Source: Klenkia terrae (GTDB lineage: Bacteria; Actinomycetota; Actinomycetes; Mycobacteriales; Geodermatophilaceae). From it: a stretch of 54,975 nt of DNA. Location of the stretch: positions 72,271 to 127,245 of the forward strand of contig NZ_UEXK01000004.1 in assembly GCF_900491935.1 (NCBI RefSeq), in the 5' to 3' direction. The notes beneath the pieces were generated by a model, which searched no databases, was not told the DNA's origin, and saw only the letters and a list, made by a program, of their open reading frames with translations. Both the position numbers and the translations under genes were made by a program. Below are positions 22,744 through 51,683 of the stretch, one piece after another (position 1 is the stretch's first letter; each line of letters starts with the position of its first letter).

Positions 22744-23738
22744 CGGCCGTGCCGTCCGGCCGGCACCTCGTCGGGGGCCCGGTGGGCGTAGCCGACCGCG
22801 TCGGCCAGCCGGCCGAACCCGCGCTCGCCCAGCGCCTCGGCGAGCTCGGCGTGGATCCGGGCCGGGGCCGACGGGTCGTTGAAGACCGCGGTGCCCACCG
22901 AGACCGCACCGGCACCGGCGAGGATGAACTGCAGGGCGTCCAGGCCGGTCCGGATGCCGCCCATGCCCAGGATCGGCACGTTGGGCAGCGCGGCGTGCAC
23001 CTGCCATACGCAGCGCAGCGCGACCGGCCGGATCGCCGGACCGGACAGCCCGCCGGTGACCCCGCCGAGCACCGGCCGCATCGTGTCCGGGTCGATGACC
23101 AGGCCGAGCAGCGTGTTGATCATCGACAGGCCGTTGGCGCCGGCGTCGGCGCACGCCCGGGCCACCGCGACGATGTCGGTGACGTCGGGGGTGAGCTTGG
23201 CGTAGACCGGGTGCGCCGGGTCGGCGGCCTCCCGCACGGCGGCGACCACCGCGGCCGAGGCGTCGGGGTTGCAGGCGAACACCTCGCCGCGGCTCTCCAC
23301 GTTCGGGCAGGAGATGTTGACCTCGATGCCCAGCACGCCGGGGGCCCCGCGCAGCCGGGCGGCCAGCTCGGCGAAGTCCTCGGTGCGGGCACCGGCGATC
23401 GACACGAAGGACCGGACGCCGCGCTCGGCCAGCCAGGGCAACTCGTCCTCCAGCAACCCGTCGATGCCCGGGCCCTGCAGGCCGATCGAGTTGATCATCC
23501 CGCTGGGGGTCTCGGCCATCCGCGGGGTGGCCCGCCCCGACCGCGGCCGCAGCTGCACCGACTTGGTGACCACCGCACCGATCGAGGTGAGGTCGAAGAA
23601 CGGGTCGAGCTCCCGGCCGAACGCCGAGCAGCCCGAGGCGGTCAGCACCGGGCTGACCAGCGGGACGCCGCCGACGGAGGCCTGCATGTCGACGCTGGGC
23701 ACCTCGACCTCGGCCAGCTCGAGCTCGGGCAGGGTCAC
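22740..23738 (-). CDS. pyrD: Dihydroorotate dehydrogenase, class 1B catalytic subunit
   Basis: 332 residues, FMN barrel. The active-site base is a Cys in VNISCPN, which marks class 1; the membrane-bound class 2 enzyme has Ser and an N-terminal membrane helix, and neither is seen. GMGGIRTG and SVGTAVF near the end bind the FMN phosphate. With the adjacent pyrK it should form an NAD-dependent heterotetramer. GTG 23738 overlaps the pyrK stop; an ATG about 16 codons later is an alternative start. Confidence 0.94.
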   Translation of the reverse strand: MTLPELELAEVEVPSVDMQASVGGVPLVSPVLTASGCSAFGRELDPFFDLTSIGAVVTKSVQLRPRSGRATPRMAETPSGMINSIGLQGPGIDGLLEDELPWLAERGVRSFVSIAGARTEDFAELAARLRGAPGVLGIEVNISCPNVESRGEVFACNPDASAAVVAAVREAADPAHPVYAKLTPDVTDIVAVARACADAGANGLSMINTLLGLVIDPDTMRPVLGGVTGGLSGPAIRPVALRCVWQVHAALPNVPILGMGGIRTGLDALQFILAGAGAVSVGTAVFNDPSAPARIHAELAEALGERGFGRLADAVGYAHRAPDEVPAGRHGR

Positions 23739-32776: not shown

Positions 32777-32819
32777 ACGACGAAGGGCCCCTCCCGGTGC
32801 GGGAGGGGCCCTTCGTCGT
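32777..32819. terminator. Bidirectional terminator between bldD and nusB
   Basis: A perfect 19-bp stem (32777-32795 with 32801-32819) closes a 5-nt loop between two convergent genes; its core is GGGCCCCTCCC / GGGAGGGGCCC. It lies 13 nt after the bldD stop and 16 nt before the nusB stop. Confidence 0.9.
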
Positions 32820-46774: not shown

Positions 46775-47650
46775 GTGCAGCACCGCACCATCGGCAACGA
46801 CGTCGTCGGCCGGGTCACCGTGTCGGCCATCGGCCTGGGCGCCATGCCCCTGTCCATCACCCCCCAGCGCCCGTCGGCGGAGGCGGCCGAGGCCGTCGTC
46901 CACGCGGCGCTGGACGCCGGGGTCACCCTCATCGACACCGCGGACGCCTACTGCCTCGACGACACCGAGGTGGGCCACAACGAGCGCACGGTGGCGGCCG
47001 CCGTCCGGTCGTGGGGCGGGACGGACGACGTCCTCATCGCGACCAAGGGCGGGCACACCCGGCCCGGCGGCACCGAGTGGGGCCTGGACGGCTCACCTGA
47101 GTACCTGGAGCGGGCGTGCGACGCCTCGCTGCAGGCCCTCGGCGTGGACGCCATCGGGCTCTACCAGTTCCACCGGCCCGACCCGCAGACCCCGTGGGCG
47201 GACTCGATGGGCGCGCTCAAGGACCTCTACGACGCCGGCAAGGTGCGGATGGTCGGGGTGTCCAACGCCGACATCGGCCAGATCGACGAGGCCCGGGCCA
47301 TCTGCGGCGACGCCTTCGTCAGCGTGCAGAACCAGTTCTCCCCCGGCTACCGCTCGTCGGCCGGCGAGCTGGCGCACTGCGCGGCCAACGGCATCGCCTG
47401 GTTCCCCTGGAGCCCGTTCGGCGGGATGGGCGACGCCGGCTCGCTGGCGACCACCGCCGCCGAGTTCGGCGCGGTCGCCGAGGAGCTGGGTGTCTCGGTG
47501 TACCAGGTGACGCTGGCCTGGCACCTCGCCCAGGCCGACGTGGTCATCCCCATCCCCGGCGCGAGCAAGCCGCGGAGCATCCAGGACTCGGCCGCCGCCA
47601 CCCACGTGCAGCTGACCGCCGAGCACCTGGCCAGGCTGAACAACGCCTGA
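46775..47650 (+). CDS. Aldo/keto reductase
   Basis: 291 residues, TIM barrel using NADPH. The catalytic tetrad is readable: Asp and Tyr in DTADAY near 47-52, Lys in ATKGG near 89 and His in QFHRPDP near 130; SVQNQFSPG and PIPGASKP are the family's later strands. GTG 46775 is chosen because GAGAGGA lies 7 nt upstream and the protein then starts with the expected HRTIG. The long open frame before it is the antisense of rarA. Substrate unknown; close to the yeast-type YajO/IolS branch by its DTADAY and GxSN motifs. Confidence 0.88.
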   Translation: MQHRTIGNDVVGRVTVSAIGLGAMPLSITPQRPSAEAAEAVVHAALDAGVTLIDTADAYCLDDTEVGHNERTVAAAVRSWGGTDDVLIATKGGHTRPGGTEWGLDGSPEYLERACDASLQALGVDAIGLYQFHRPDPQTPWADSMGALKDLYDAGKVRMVGVSNADIGQIDEARAICGDAFVSVQNQFSPGYRSSAGELAHCAANGIAWFPWSPFGGMGDAGSLATTAAEFGAVAEELGVSVYQVTLAWHLAQADVVIPIPGASKPRSIQDSAAATHVQLTAEHLARLNNA

Positions 47651-47670
47651 CCCCGCCCCCGCCCGGCGGA

Positions 47671-47743
47671 GTTGATCATCGTCAGCTGCAGGTCGGACAC
47701 GCCGTCCCCCGGCGCGCCCTGGCTGCACCTGACGATGATCAAC
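47671..47743. repeat. 73-bp palindromic repeat, copy A
   Basis: Starts GTTGATCATCGTCAG (47671-47685) and ends with its exact reverse complement (47729-47743); a second 5-bp block TGCAG/CTGCA pairs inside after one mismatch. Copy B at 48733-48805 is the same length and, when reversed, matches copy A at 61 of 73 positions with no gaps, including the first 23 bases. It begins 20 nt after the aldo/keto reductase stop, so it could also end that transcript. Confidence 0.9.
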
Positions 47744-47867
47744 TCCCTGGGGGTTGGCCTAGCAGGCTGCACGGCCGGGCGTTCGTGGGCGTGCACATCA
47801 GGGGGTGTTGTCCACCGGTCGCCCGACCGGCCTCCACGGATGTCTGCGGCGGTCCACGGTCGCCGGC

Positions 47868-48737
47868 ATGGACGTCCCCCGGGTGCTGACCTCCGCCGCA
47901 GCGACCGCCGCCGGTGCCGGCCGGGGTCGGCGGCAGGGCGCCGACTGGCTGCACCTGGCGCACGACCGCTGGGTCCAGCTCGACGACGCGCTCGACGGCA
48001 GGGAGCAGCTCGCGCTGCTCGCCCAGGGACTGCCGGACGACGCCGCCTTCAGCCACCTCACCGCCGCGCACCTGCTGGGCGCCCACGTCGACCTGCCGGC
48101 GCGGCCCACCGTCGCGCTCACCCCGCGCCGCGTGCTCCCCCAGCGGGCCGAGGTGGTCACCCGGATCCGCACGCTGGCCCACGAGGACGTCGTCGAGCGC
48201 GACGGGATGCGGGTGACCAGCGGAGCGCAGACCTTCCTGGACTGCGCTGCCGTGATGTCCGCCGACGAGCTGTGCGCCGTCGGCGACGCGCTGCTGCGCT
48301 CGGGAGCCGTGACCGCCGAGGAGCTGGCCGACCGCCTGGCCCGGGCCGGGCGGGCCCGCGGCGTGGTCCGGGCCCGGGCGGTGGCGCCGCACCTGGACGC
48401 CCGGGCGATGTCCCGGCCGGAGAGCCAGATCCGCTGGTGGCTGGTCGACAGCGACCTGCCGCCGGTCCAGCCGCAGGTGCCCGTCCGCGACCGGTGGGGC
48501 ACGGTCGTCGCCCACGGCGACCTCGGGTGGGAGGAGTGGCGCGTGCTGGAGGAGTACGAGGGACGCCAGCACGCCGAGCGCGACCAGTTCGAGCGGGACG
48601 TCGACCGGTACTCGCTGATGGCCGCCGACGGCTACCTGCTGCTGCGCTTCGCCGCCCGGCACCGCAACGCCCGCACGGTCGTGGACCGCAGCCGCCGTGC
48701 GCTGCTCACCCGCGGCTGGCGCCCACCCCGTCGTTGA
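47868..48737 (+). CDS. DUF559-type (Vsr-like fold) nuclease domain protein, AbiEi-like N-terminus
   Basis: 289 residues. The N-terminal half resembles the winged-helix 'type IV toxin-antitoxin AbiEi-like' domain common in actinobacterial orphan genes (FSHLTAAHLLGAHV, MRVTSGAQTFLDCAAVM). The C-terminal about 90 residues have the DUF559/Vsr layout: Asp near 218 (HGDLGWEEWRV), Glu in LEEYEGRQH near 228-235 and a helical end (DRYSLMAADGYLLLRFA), with Glu185 in RPESQIRWW. ATG 47868 is used; an in-frame GTG at 47805 is possible. The TGA stop (48735-48737) lies inside repeat copy B. No partner toxin gene is adjacent. Function unknown; nuclease activity is inferred from fold. Confidence 0.78.
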   Translation: MDVPRVLTSAAATAAGAGRGRRQGADWLHLAHDRWVQLDDALDGREQLALLAQGLPDDAAFSHLTAAHLLGAHVDLPARPTVALTPRRVLPQRAEVVTRIRTLAHEDVVERDGMRVTSGAQTFLDCAAVMSADELCAVGDALLRSGAVTAEELADRLARAGRARGVVRARAVAPHLDARAMSRPESQIRWWLVDSDLPPVQPQVPVRDRWGTVVAHGDLGWEEWRVLEEYEGRQHAERDQFERDVDRYSLMAADGYLLLRFAARHRNARTVVDRSRRALLTRGWRPPRR

Positions 48738-48805
48738 TCATCGCCTCGTGCAGGTGGGACACGCCGTCGGAGGGCGTGTCCCACCTGCAGCTGACGATGA
48801 TCAAC
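48733..48805. repeat. 73-bp palindromic repeat, copy B
   Basis: Outer arms GTTGATCATCG (48733-48743) and CGATGATCAAC (48795-48805) pair perfectly; a 17-bp inner stem (48749-48765 with 48773-48789) follows after a symmetric 5-nt mismatch and is closed by a 7-nt loop. It is copy A in inverted orientation (84% identical over 73 bp). It contains the stop codon of the DUF559 gene and ends 7 nt before the stop of the convergent aminotransferase, so it could also act as a two-way terminator. Confidence 0.92.
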
Positions 48806-48812
48806 AGGCCCC

Positions 48813-49898
48813 TCAGGCGAGGACGGCGTCCAGGGCGGCCAGGACGAGGGCGACCGAGTCCGGGCGGGCGTTGTGGCCCATCAGGCCGATCCGCCAGACG
48901 GTGGCGGCGAACTCGCCGACGCCGCCGCCGATCTCGATGCCGTACTCGTCCAGCAGGCGCTTGCGCACGGCGGCGGAGTCGACGCCGTCGGGCACCCACA
49001 CGGTGGTCAGCTCCGGCAGCCGGTGGCCGGCCGCGGCGAACAGCCGCATGCCGCGGGCCTCGAGGCCGGACTGCAGCGCAGCACCGGCGGCGGCGTGCCG
49101 GGCGTGGACGGCGTCCAGGCCCTCCTCGAGCACCCGGCCCAGGCCGGCGTGCAGCGAGACGACCATGCCGGTCGGCGCGGTGTGGTGGTAGGTCCGCCCA
49201 CCCGAGCCGCCGGCCTCGCCGGCGTACCCGCCGAGCAGACCGAGGTCGAGGTACCAGGACTGCGGCCGGGTGATCCGCCGCTCCCACGCCCGGTCGCTGA
49301 TGGTGAACGGCGCCAGGCCGGGCGCGACGCCCAGGCACTTCTGCGAGCCCGAGTAGGCGATGTCCACGCCCCACTCGTCCAGGGCGACCGGGATGCCGCC
49401 CAGCGACGTCACGCAGTCGGCGACCAGCAGCGCATCGCCCTTGCCGGCGCCCAGCGCGGCCATGTCGGACTCCACGCCGGTGGAGGTCTCGGCGTGCACC
49501 GCGGCGATGACCTTGGGCGAGGGGTGCGCGGCCAGCACCCGGTCGGCGTCGACCGGCTGCCCCCACTCGTGGTCGACGGTGACCACCTCGGCGCCGGTGC
49601 GGGAGGCGACCTCGGCCATCCGTTGGCCGAAGAGCCCGTTGACCGCGACGACGGCGACGTCGCCGGGGCCCAGCGTGTTGACGAACGCCGCCTCCATGCC
49701 CGCGGACCCGGTGGCCGACAGCGGCAGCGTGCGCCGGTTCTGCGTGCCGAAGACGGTGCGCAGACGGTCGGACGTCTCGTCCAGCACCTGGAGGAAGAGC
49801 GGGTCGAGGTGACCCAGCAGCGGCTGCCCGAGGGCGACCGTCGCCTCCGGGTAGGGGTTGCAGGGTCCGGGTCCGAGCAGGGTGCGGGCGCGCAGCAT
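48813..49898 (-). CDS. Class V aminotransferase (alanine/serine-glyoxylate type)
   Basis: 361 residues, PLP-dependent fold I. Begins LLGPGPCNPYPE as alanine- and serine-glyoxylate aminotransferases do; PLP-binding Asp in LLVADCVTSLGG near 158 and Schiff-base Lys in YSGSQKCLG near 190; later THHTAPT-like YHHTAPTGM. Probable reaction is transfer between an amino acid and glyoxylate or pyruvate. ATG 49898 is preferred over GTG 49919 because TAGCGT lies 7 nt before it, so the transcript would start at or beside the ATG. Stands alone. Confidence 0.9.
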   Translation of the reverse strand: MLRARTLLGPGPCNPYPEATVALGQPLLGHLDPLFLQVLDETSDRLRTVFGTQNRRTLPLSATGSAGMEAAFVNTLGPGDVAVVAVNGLFGQRMAEVASRTGAEVVTVDHEWGQPVDADRVLAAHPSPKVIAAVHAETSTGVESDMAALGAGKGDALLVADCVTSLGGIPVALDEWGVDIAYSGSQKCLGVAPGLAPFTISDRAWERRITRPQSWYLDLGLLGGYAGEAGGSGGRTYHHTAPTGMVVSLHAGLGRVLEEGLDAVHARHAAAGAALQSGLEARGMRLFAAAGHRLPELTTVWVPDGVDSAAVRKRLLDEYGIEIGGGVGEFAATVWRIGLMGHNARPDSVALVLAALDAVLA

Positions 49899-49905
49899 GT
49901 GAGCC

Positions 49906-49911
49906 ACGCTA
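49906..49911 (-). promoter_or_regulatory. Candidate -10 element of the aminotransferase (leaderless)
   Basis: TAGCGT on the minus strand, 7 nt upstream of ATG 49898; identical to the element in front of rarA. It sits in the 36-bp gap after aspS. Confidence 0.55.
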
Positions 49912-49934
49912 CCCAGCACCCCTGGACGTCCGGG

Positions 49935-51683
49935 TCAGGCCTCCGCGGCGGCCGGCTTCGCGGGGGGCTCGACCCAGTCGATGCCGGCCTCCTTGCGCTG
50001 CGCGTCGCTGATCGGCGTCGGGGCACCGGTCAGCGGGTCGTAGCCGGCCCCGGTCTTCGGGAAGGCGATGACCTCGCGGATGGAGTCCACGCCGGCCAGC
50101 AGCGCGGTCAGCCGGTCCCAGCCCAGCGCGGCGCCGGCGTGCGGCGGCGGGCCGTAGGCGAAGGCCTCCAGGAAGAACCCGAACCGGTCGCGGGCCTCCT
50201 CGCGGGACATGCCGAGGGTCTCGAACACCCGCTCCTGCAGCGCGGCGTCGTGGATGCGGACCGAGCCGGACATGCACTCGTTGCCGTTGATCACCAGGTC
50301 GTAGGCGTCGGACAGCGCCGCACCCTTGTCGTCGGCGAACCGCTCCCGCCACTCCGGGGTGGGCGAGGTGAAGGGGTGGTGCATGAAGGTCCACCCCCCC
50401 TCCTCGGTCTCCTCGAACATCGGGAAGTCCACGACGAACAGGAACGACCAGGACCCGGGCTCGATGAGCTCCAGCCGCTTGGCGATCTCGTTGCGGGCGG
50501 CGCCCAGCAGCTCCTGGGAGGTCCGGCGCTGGCCGGCGGCGAAGAAGATGCAGTCGCCGGGCTTCGCGCCCACGGCCTCGACCAGGCCGGCCCGCTCGGT
50601 GTCGGAGATGTTCTTGGTGACCGGGCCGCCCAGCGTGCCGTCCTCGGCGACGGTGACGTAGGCCAGGCCCTTGGCCCCGCGCGAGCGGGCCCAGTCCTGC
50701 CAGGCGTCGAACGTGCGGCGGGGCTGCGAGCCACCGCCGGGCATGACGACGGCGCCGACGTAGGGCGACTGGAACACCCGGAACGGGGTGTCGGCGAAGA
50801 ACTCGGTCAGCTCGGTGAGCTCGAGGCCGAACCGCAGGTCGGGCTTGTCGGACCCGAAGCGGTCCATCGCCTCGCGGTAGGTCATCCGCGGGATCTCGCC
50901 GACGTCGTGGGCGGCGAGCTCCTTCCACAGCGCGGTGACCACGGAGGAGGCCACGTCCAGGACGTCGTCCCGGTCGACGAAGCTCATCTCGAAGTCCAGC
51001 TGGGTGAACTCCGGCTGCCGGTCGGCGCGGAAGTCCTCGTCCCGGAAGCACCGGGCGATCTGGTAGTACCGCTCGAGCCCGCCGATCATCAGCAGCTGCT
51101 TGAACAGCTGCGGCGACTGCGGCAGCGCGTACCAGGAGCCGGGCTGCAGGCGCACCGGGACGACGAAGTCGCGGGCGCCCTCGGGGGTGGAGCGGGTCAG
51201 CGACGGCGTCTCGACCTCGGTGAACCCCTTGCCGGCCATGACGCCGCGGGCCACCCGGTTGATCTCGCTGCGCAGCTTCATGACCGATGCCGGGCCCTGC
51301 CGCCGCAGGTCGAGGTAGCGGTAGGTGTAGCGGACGTCGTCCCCGGCGGCCTGCGCGGTCTCGATCGGGAACGGCAGCGGCGCCGACGTCGACAGCACCT
51401 GCAGGGTCGAGGCGACGACCTCGATCTCGCCCGAGGGCAGCTCCGGGTTCTCGTTGCCGTCCGGGCGGGCCTGCACCTGCCCGGTCACCAGCACGCAGAA
51501 CTCGTTGCGCAGCGCGTGCGCGTCGGACTCCCGGACGACGACCTGGGCGTAGCCGGAGCCGTCGCGCAGGTCCAGGAAGACCACCCCGCCGTGGTCGCGG
51601 CGGCGGGCGATCCAGCCGGCGAGGGTGACGGTGGTGCCGGCGTCGGCAGCGCGGAGGGTGCCGGCGTCGTGGGTGCGGAGCAC
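49935..51683 (-). CDS. aspS: Aspartyl-tRNA synthetase
   Basis: 582 residues, bacterial-type with the GAD insertion domain ([24 protein letters not shown] region). The N-terminal OB-fold anticodon-binding domain carries [19 protein letters not shown]; motif 2 is [18 protein letters not shown] near 218 and motif 3 GAALGWDRL near 530. Many actinobacterial AspRS enzymes are non-discriminating and also charge tRNA-Asn; sequence alone does not settle that here. GTG 51683. Confidence 0.97.

Follow-up and report, generated by a model that had tools for sequence, protein, structure and literature searches.

How REP-like palindromes spread is a question that has so far been tied to one nuclease family, the RAYTs. 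The RAYT nuclease gene is usually present in a single copy with no evidence of mobility of its own, its palindromes lie genome-wide, and the stems of the E. coli REPs contain a conserved bulge which is needed for cutting (PMC8266576). In GTAG REPs the ends of the palindrome give the stop codons of neighbouring genes (PMC3733652), and in REPINs 71 bp lie between two invariant ends (PMC3116915). Judged by analogy with such REPtron-like systems, the arrangement of a palindrome together with a dedicated nuclease is already known. Among the matches listed in open PMC (titles and the beginnings of abstracts, with subscription journals and preprints outside its scope), none connects dispersed palindromes with nucleases of the DUF559 or AbiEi type, and none of those listed for the DUF559 literature concerns palindromic repeats; in the main text of a 2025 survey of REP sequences, a term search shows nuclease, DUF and RAYT to be absent (PMC12306157).

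The soil-actinobacterial nuclease cassettes described here look like an undescribed counterpart of the REP/RAYT systems. They are considered from one locus of Klenkia terrae, situated in a stretch of 54,975 nucleotides that was analysed as a whole (the window). As in REPtrons, in the form described above, a nuclease gene that is usually resident in the chromosome stands beside its palindromes, scattered copies exist whose abundance correlates with the gene, the ends of the palindromes provide stop codons for neighbouring genes, the stems are imperfect and the size of the unit is near the 71-bp spacing of REPINs; the cassette also mostly stays put (74 of 99 homologues), as RAYT genes do. Unlike in REPtrons, the cassette protein has no HUH/Y1 match and consists of a DUF559/PD-(D/E)XK-like and an AbiEi-like part, the palindromes carry no GTAG/CGTC tag at their foot, a genome holds at most 19 strict copies, and palindromes of the cassette's own class stand on either side of it.

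We assign a probability of about 0.6 to the reading that the DUF559-type protein has its own palindrome as substrate and brings about its spread, in the manner of a REPtron with an unrelated enzyme. The product of the cassette gene is predicted to be a nuclease of PD-(D/E)XK-like (DUF559/Vsr-like) type that also has an AbiEi-like part. Palindrome binding, cutting and mobilisation, as well as the recognising domain, are steps that we infer: the nuclease would bind its own palindrome class and would cut or nick the cognate palindrome as a hairpin, a cruciform or a duplex, such cutting could lead to the spread and loss of palindromes, mostly at the 3' ends of genes, and an occasional passenger gene caught between two copies might spread along with them. 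Selection would keep the cassette in its fixed place, with the palindromes as a small population of no more than 19 strict copies per genome. Should this mechanism hold, the enzyme class is new to a palindrome-mobilising role; the combination of palindrome and resident nuclease would then have arisen more than once, with a non-homologous enzyme, and actinobacterial genes known just as DUF559 or AbiEi-like would gain a likely role.

The cassette locus and its protein

An earlier note on this DNA had described two 73-nt palindromes framing one DUF559-type gene, and its measured details are confirmed (Table 1): each palindrome is 84–86% self-complementary, and A is 84% complementary to B, the two being 79% identical when compared in direct orientation. 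The identity of the first 23 bases, also given there, is found in inverted orientation, whereas in direct orientation only the first 11 bases agree. No other short-range inverted repeat listed over the 55 kb of the window is as long as A or B, and as single-stranded DNA the two palindromes fold far better than shuffled sequences (z of -7.0 and -10.3). The outer ends on both sides of a palindrome are formed by GTTGATCATCG, a motif which, with at most one mismatch, occurs eight times in the window vs 0.25 expected, four of the eight matches being the ends of palindromes A and B. The cassette comprises one gene with homologues between the two palindromes. The stop codon of the aldo/keto reductase gene lies 20 nt before palindrome A, and the terminal GTTGA of palindrome B is the source of the TGA stop of the cassette gene itself (48735-48737), a stop inside the palindrome which is absent from the earlier note.

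Two further features of the window were observed. Lone half-sites, one being GTTGATCATCG and one having a mismatch, lie at 23115-23125 and 23490-23500 with no second arm nearby, and at 32777-32819 there is an inverted repeat with perfect 20-bp arms and a loop of 3 nt, which falls outside the palindrome families described here.

Table 1. Positions of the features discussed (window coordinates unless a locus or contig is named)
Feature	Position	Strand	Remarks
Aldo/keto reductase gene (tested stretch)	46796..47650	+	Left neighbour; conserved marker of the cassette locus
Palindrome A	47671..47743	.	73-nt class; arms 47671-47706 and 47708-47743
Cassette gene	47868..48737	+	289 aa; AbiEi-like region, then DUF559/PD-(D/E)XK-like nuclease region
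AbiEi-like region	about residues 34-186 of the cassette protein		
Predicted nuclease core, residues 182-260	48411..48647	+	Conserved residues in alignment
Palindrome B	48733..48805	.	73-nt class
Class-V aminotransferase gene	48813..49919	-	Right neighbour, convergent
Class II tRNA synthetase gene, taken as aspartyl-tRNA synthetase (AspS)	49935..51683	-	Second conserved locus marker
VOC passenger unit	L070:5806-6500 = C4:4161805-4162499		Glyoxalase-like VOC gene between two 73-nt palindromes

The nearest named relative is K. soli (88% protein identity). The match of the window protein to the DUF559 profile is weak, at 18.0 bits for a curated cut-off of 20.6, and one relative (L087) clears this cut-off with 21.0 bits. 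Among the window protein and 25 relatives, Pfam searches (E <= 0.01) returned DUF559 in 20 of the 26, REase_MTES_1575 in six and AbiEi_1 in five, and nothing else. In the alignment of 26 members, from which L143 was left out on account of an internal stop, the residues E185, D218, E229, G232, H235, D244, R247 and R260 do not vary; when the set is widened to 33 members, E229 is found in at least 90% and the remaining core residues are invariant. We take E185, D218, E229 and H235 to be of catalytic type. In these conserved nuclease-type residues and in its profile matches the cassette protein resembles the DUF559/REase_MTES_1575/Vsr-like nucleases, and the family profile has a remote match to an endonuclease-like protein of known structure (PDB 3hrl, E 0.0021).

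The enclosed protein differs from RAYTs, as had been proposed earlier: in Pfam, no family member scanned has an HUH/Y1 (RAYT) nuclease match, and it is for this reason that the cassette protein was not filed as a RAYT. The values of dN/dS are 0.15–0.29 between the window gene and three Klenkia relatives and 0.13–0.29 across seven pairs; the cassette gene is under purifying selection and its protein is therefore retained for a function. A defence cassette was one option offered by the earlier note; a function in phage defence gained no support. The protein has no match in 50,697 phage records and none confirmed among the viral contigs of IMG/VR, its AbiEi similarity is to a regulator or antitoxin, and no AbiEii-type toxin gene adjoins the window gene, whose neighbours are Aldo_ket_red and Aminotran_5. 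An origin as phage or plasmid cargo was likewise rejected, there being only two distant matches among 72,556 plasmid records in addition to the viral searches just given.

Copies of the palindrome and where they lie

Dispersed copies had been expected, and at least 10 places in the source genome match the 73-nt unit over 70–73 bases, the best E at each being <= 7.4e-9; this number is a lower bound, since 40 of the 75 first-look candidates were scored, and the weaker matches in the genome are short inner stretches of the unit. A coincidental repeat of just two copies is thereby ruled out. A strict pattern (TTGATCATC, 35–65 bases, GATGATCAA) finds seven copies in the source genome, copies in six of the nine Klenkia genomes and altogether 250 copies over 51 of the 112 genomes of the family Geodermatophilaceae, with a maximum of 19 per genome, and the reversed control pattern finds none in all 112.

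The lengths of 83 distinct copies in the loci examined are 63 nt (n=34), 73 (n=25), 72 (n=15), 62 (n=4), 82 (n=3), 61 (n=1) and 64 (n=1), falling into discrete classes of about 63, 72/73 and 82 nt with a step of approximately one DNA turn, within a pattern that allowed 55–85 nt, so that length classes beyond this range would go undetected. The outer 11 bases and a TGCAG motif are near-invariant. In 22 copies examined for broken pairs, positions 15 and 16 are unpaired in 15 copies and positions 17, 22 and 24 in 8, 11 and 12 respectively, and the stems therefore contain mismatched stretches and no single fixed bulge. Covariation of the arms as proof of selection for the hairpin is a test that failed: within a copy there is none, 73-nt and 63-nt copies pairing no better than arms shuffled between copies, and for this reason we do not claim selection on pairing itself. 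Two inverted half-sites for protein binding would give the same picture as hairpin pairing. The palindromes are presumably not integron attC sites, the end boxes of which face the opposite way.

When neighbours are assigned by a crude gene caller, the flanking genes are convergent for 27 copies, tandem for 23 and divergent for six, with four unjudged and the cassette-flanking copies partly included, and none of the 56 copies with called neighbours lies inside a called gene. In 41 of the 83 distinct copies a terminal TGA doubles as the stop codon of an adjacent gene. Counted per end, such overlap is seen in 43 of 166 vs 66 of 429 TGAs close by, a group that includes many real gene stops, and the excess is only moderate.

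This placement bears on two alternatives. Palindromes that fold strongly, favour the 3' ends of genes and often lie between convergent ones could be ordinary bidirectional terminators, repeated by chance. We consider this very improbable, as terminators need no invariant 11-base ends or fixed lengths, and need neither to match a nuclease gene in class nor to frame DUF559-type genes at different places. Terminator-like hairpins followed by a T-run are absent from positions 47500-49000, so that there is none at palindrome A or B, and Rfam returned no RNA family over the same interval. Ordinary terminators of convergent genes had been named earlier as an outcome that would speak against a mobile element; 3' ends are indeed favoured, yet the palindrome class goes with the cassette.

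The palindromes may instead be operators, by means of which an AbiEi-like protein would repress its own gene from the upstream copy, the scattered copies constituting a regulon. AbiEi defence models match all 26 aligned members of the family, as they would the regulators of type IV toxin-antitoxin systems, and one palindrome is located about 125 bp upstream of the cassette gene; AbiEi binds inverted repeats of up to 23 bp and thereby represses its own promoter (PMC3985639). Against this, the second palindrome is at the stop codon, just six of the 56 judged copies are divergent by the crude caller (some cassette copies included), and simple regulation leaves the nuclease residues, the length classes and the presence or absence of palindromes at sister sites unexplained. 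The cassette gene further differs from AbiEi regulators in having no AbiEii neighbour, a fused nuclease-like domain, and palindromes that stand on both sides and are dispersed besides. We regard the operator reading as unlikely.

Framing of DUF559-type genes and cognate palindrome classes

Relatives of the cassette protein at E <= 1e-25 are present in 87 of the 112 family genomes. The set of loci examined consisted of the 100 best-scoring ones, with two split genes merged and lower-scoring rows left out. With strict detection, palindromes with matched ends were found on both sides of 50 of the 99 testable loci vs 0 of 375 shifted intervals, and any palindrome on either side at 90 of the 99 vs 43 of 375. 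For intact genes, 25 of the 100 loci were excluded as broken or of odd length and one of the remaining 75 as lying at a contig end; matching palindromes stand on both sides of 63 of the resulting 74 homologues vs 0 of 296 shifted intervals when one of the sides may be recognised by similarity, and 52 of the 74 remain when detection is required on both sides. Cassette-type genes are framed by matching palindromes, and the excess beside DUF559-type genes predicted by the earlier note is a strong one. Framing was also observed in 14 of the 15 homologues situated away from the common neighbours.

More distant genes are framed by other palindromes. Matched ends were obtained at 14 of 20 PF04480 paralogue loci (20 of 33 rows, with gene ends estimated), the palindrome sequences differing from those of the window. 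Six extra low-scoring loci meant as controls proved to be framed too, four of the six with matched ends, and for paralogues and low-scoring loci together the comparison is again 0 of 375 shifted intervals. One paralogue's palindrome was followed genome-wide and occurs as two flanking copies, two further ones and one partial. Among 25 distant DUF559/AbiEi-type loci, taken out of 80 so as to lie outside the window's own clade and including Arthrobacter, Paenarthrobacter and one Acidobacteria bin, 23 have a flank-to-flank score of at least 44, with palindromes of other sequences, where 95% of 178 shifted intervals score at most 36 (maximum 74). In a phylum-wide DUF559 sample, a stricter detector found palindromes on both sides of 2 of 30 loci. 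This detector missed one side of a framed locus (L253, the same gene as L220), and the sample is weak because the loci are short and the top matches are small stand-alone proteins.

The source genome itself contains six other DUF559 genes on contig C4, L220 to L225, at 3093855, 3145411, 2316947, 1028425, 2944357 and 3871787 respectively. L220, L221, L223 and L224 are framed on both sides by four other palindrome sequences, L222 has a palindrome on one side and the short L225 has none.

Palindrome classes are cognate to cassettes. Strict copies, counted with the cassette-flanking ones included, occur in 31 of 39 genomes that have a GATCATCG-type cassette vs 20 of 73 that do not (p 1.3e-7), the mismatched genomes being 20 with copies but no detected cassette of this type and eight with the cassette but no strict copies. 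The five Klenkia genomes with an intact GATCATCG-type cassette hold 7, 2, 3, 8 and 6 copies, and the four without hold 1, 0, 0 and 0, one of these four being 73% complete. When flanking copies are removed, 47 or 49 of 54 dispersed copies belong to the length class of their own cassette, depending on which of two ways is used to count K. soli with its two cassettes; length-class shuffles gave means of 25.7 or 28.5 and reached the observed value in 37 or 18 of 20000. This test covered the 12 genomes with fully listed copies and readable cassette ends, and lengths were taken by hand. The similarity of palindromes also follows that of proteins: for 63 of the 75 intact genes (12 without a scored palindrome were excluded), the rank correlation is 0.40–0.54 depending on the block of the protein, with kinship among genomes incompletely removed in this as in the other tests of cognacy. 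Should the mechanism hold, so many natural pairs of protein and palindrome would make specificity readable from sequence and testable.

The N-terminal domain was considered as a clear specificity domain and rejected, residues 54-110 tracking the palindrome better (0.54 vs 0.40 for the N-terminal 54 residues, with 0.42 and 0.45 for the other blocks). Given the rest of the protein, the N-terminal block contributes a further 0.19 (permutation p 0.001), and the rest, given the N-terminal block, contributes 0.53.

In K. soli (G003), one cassette of the 73-nt class and one of the 63-nt class were observed (L120 and L125), together with strict copies of both classes.

A class that goes with its cassette also bears on the possibility that the palindromes are non-autonomous elements of another enzyme, a RAYT or an IS transposase encoded elsewhere, with a preference for the flanks of DUF559 genes. 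DUF559-type paralogues are framed by many different palindrome sequences, and together with the match of class and cassette this would require many transposases, all favouring both ends of one gene family; of the readings considered we find this the hardest to believe.

Stable locus and polymorphic palindrome sites

The same neighbours (aldo/keto reductase, class-V aminotransferase and AspS) stand beside the cassette in 74 of the 99 homologues, and the scattered copies that were read consist of a palindrome alone, with no cassette gene. Movement of gene and palindromes together as one unit, as proposed in the earlier note, gains no support from these positions. In one Klenkia relative (G004) a diverged protein and a different palindrome class are found between conserved flanks at the same locus, as though the cassette had been exchanged there.

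Presence and absence of palindromes are polymorphic at three sites, taken from the eight non-cassette copies of the source genome, and empty sites, which the earlier note had named as support, do exist in sister species, since at each of the three some Klenkia have a palindrome and others have none. At site 1 (C4:3578323) the palindrome is present in the source genome and G006 and absent in the six other Klenkia that have the upstream gene, two of which align closely on both sides. For K. soli a loss is possible at this site, because its palindrome-free sequence keeps TGATGGTCAAC, which is like the end of a palindrome. At site 2 (C4:1839267) three genomes have a palindrome of the 73-nt class and K. 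soli has one of the 63-nt class; G001 has none, and the remaining genomes are degenerate or non-comparable. At site 3 (C4:4161805 and 4162427) there is no palindrome in G001, G002, G004 and G008, a single one in K. soli and G006, and in the source genome a palindrome, a VOC gene and a second palindrome. The VOC gene is found in one of the nine Klenkia genomes, the eight others giving no match at E <= 1e-15. From these alignments, site 3 may be interpreted as a case of two palindromes carrying a foreign gene between them, though recombination into an existing palindrome fits equally well. If the former is true, a possible route would exist for single genes to move between palindromes.

Exchange at a fixed place is also what homing would produce. 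A homing-type nuclease would cut alleles that have no palindromes or other ones, the cassette would spread by gene conversion at its locus, and the scattered palindromes would be by-products. At the conserved locus the flanks are well conserved among relatives while the cassettes between them have different classes of palindrome and diverged proteins, as if alleles had been replaced, and the 63-nt-class palindrome of K. soli at site 2, where three genomes have the 73-nt class, could be understood in the same way. Homing alone leaves gene-free palindromes across the genome unexplained, however, nor is any cut site known that lies outside the palindrome. It is an improbable reading, a little more so than that of operators.

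MITEs of DDE insertion sequences are short, palindromic, non-coding, scattered and polymorphic, and the cassette palindromes share all of these properties. They differ from MITEs in that the whole unit is palindromic and no Pfam transposase profile matches the product of the linked gene. At the three sites in alignable Klenkia no target-site duplication was seen by eye, with flanks too diverged to exclude one of 2–3 bp.

Beyond the reading that a cassette nuclease spreads its own palindrome, a wider claim can be formulated, to which we give even odds: AbiEi/DUF559-type proteins would be a second, independently evolved kind of palindrome-mobilising nuclease, whose cognate families of palindromes, well over a dozen when counted by eye, occur across Actinomycetota and in at least one Acidobacteria bin. 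They would bring palindromes to the 3' ends of genes and switch class by replacement of the cassette at a fixed locus, and foreign genes could be carried between two palindromes.

There is a third palindrome at the cassette locus of the homologues L082 and L087, about 1.2 kb on and past the aminotransferase gene, which is therefore likewise framed.
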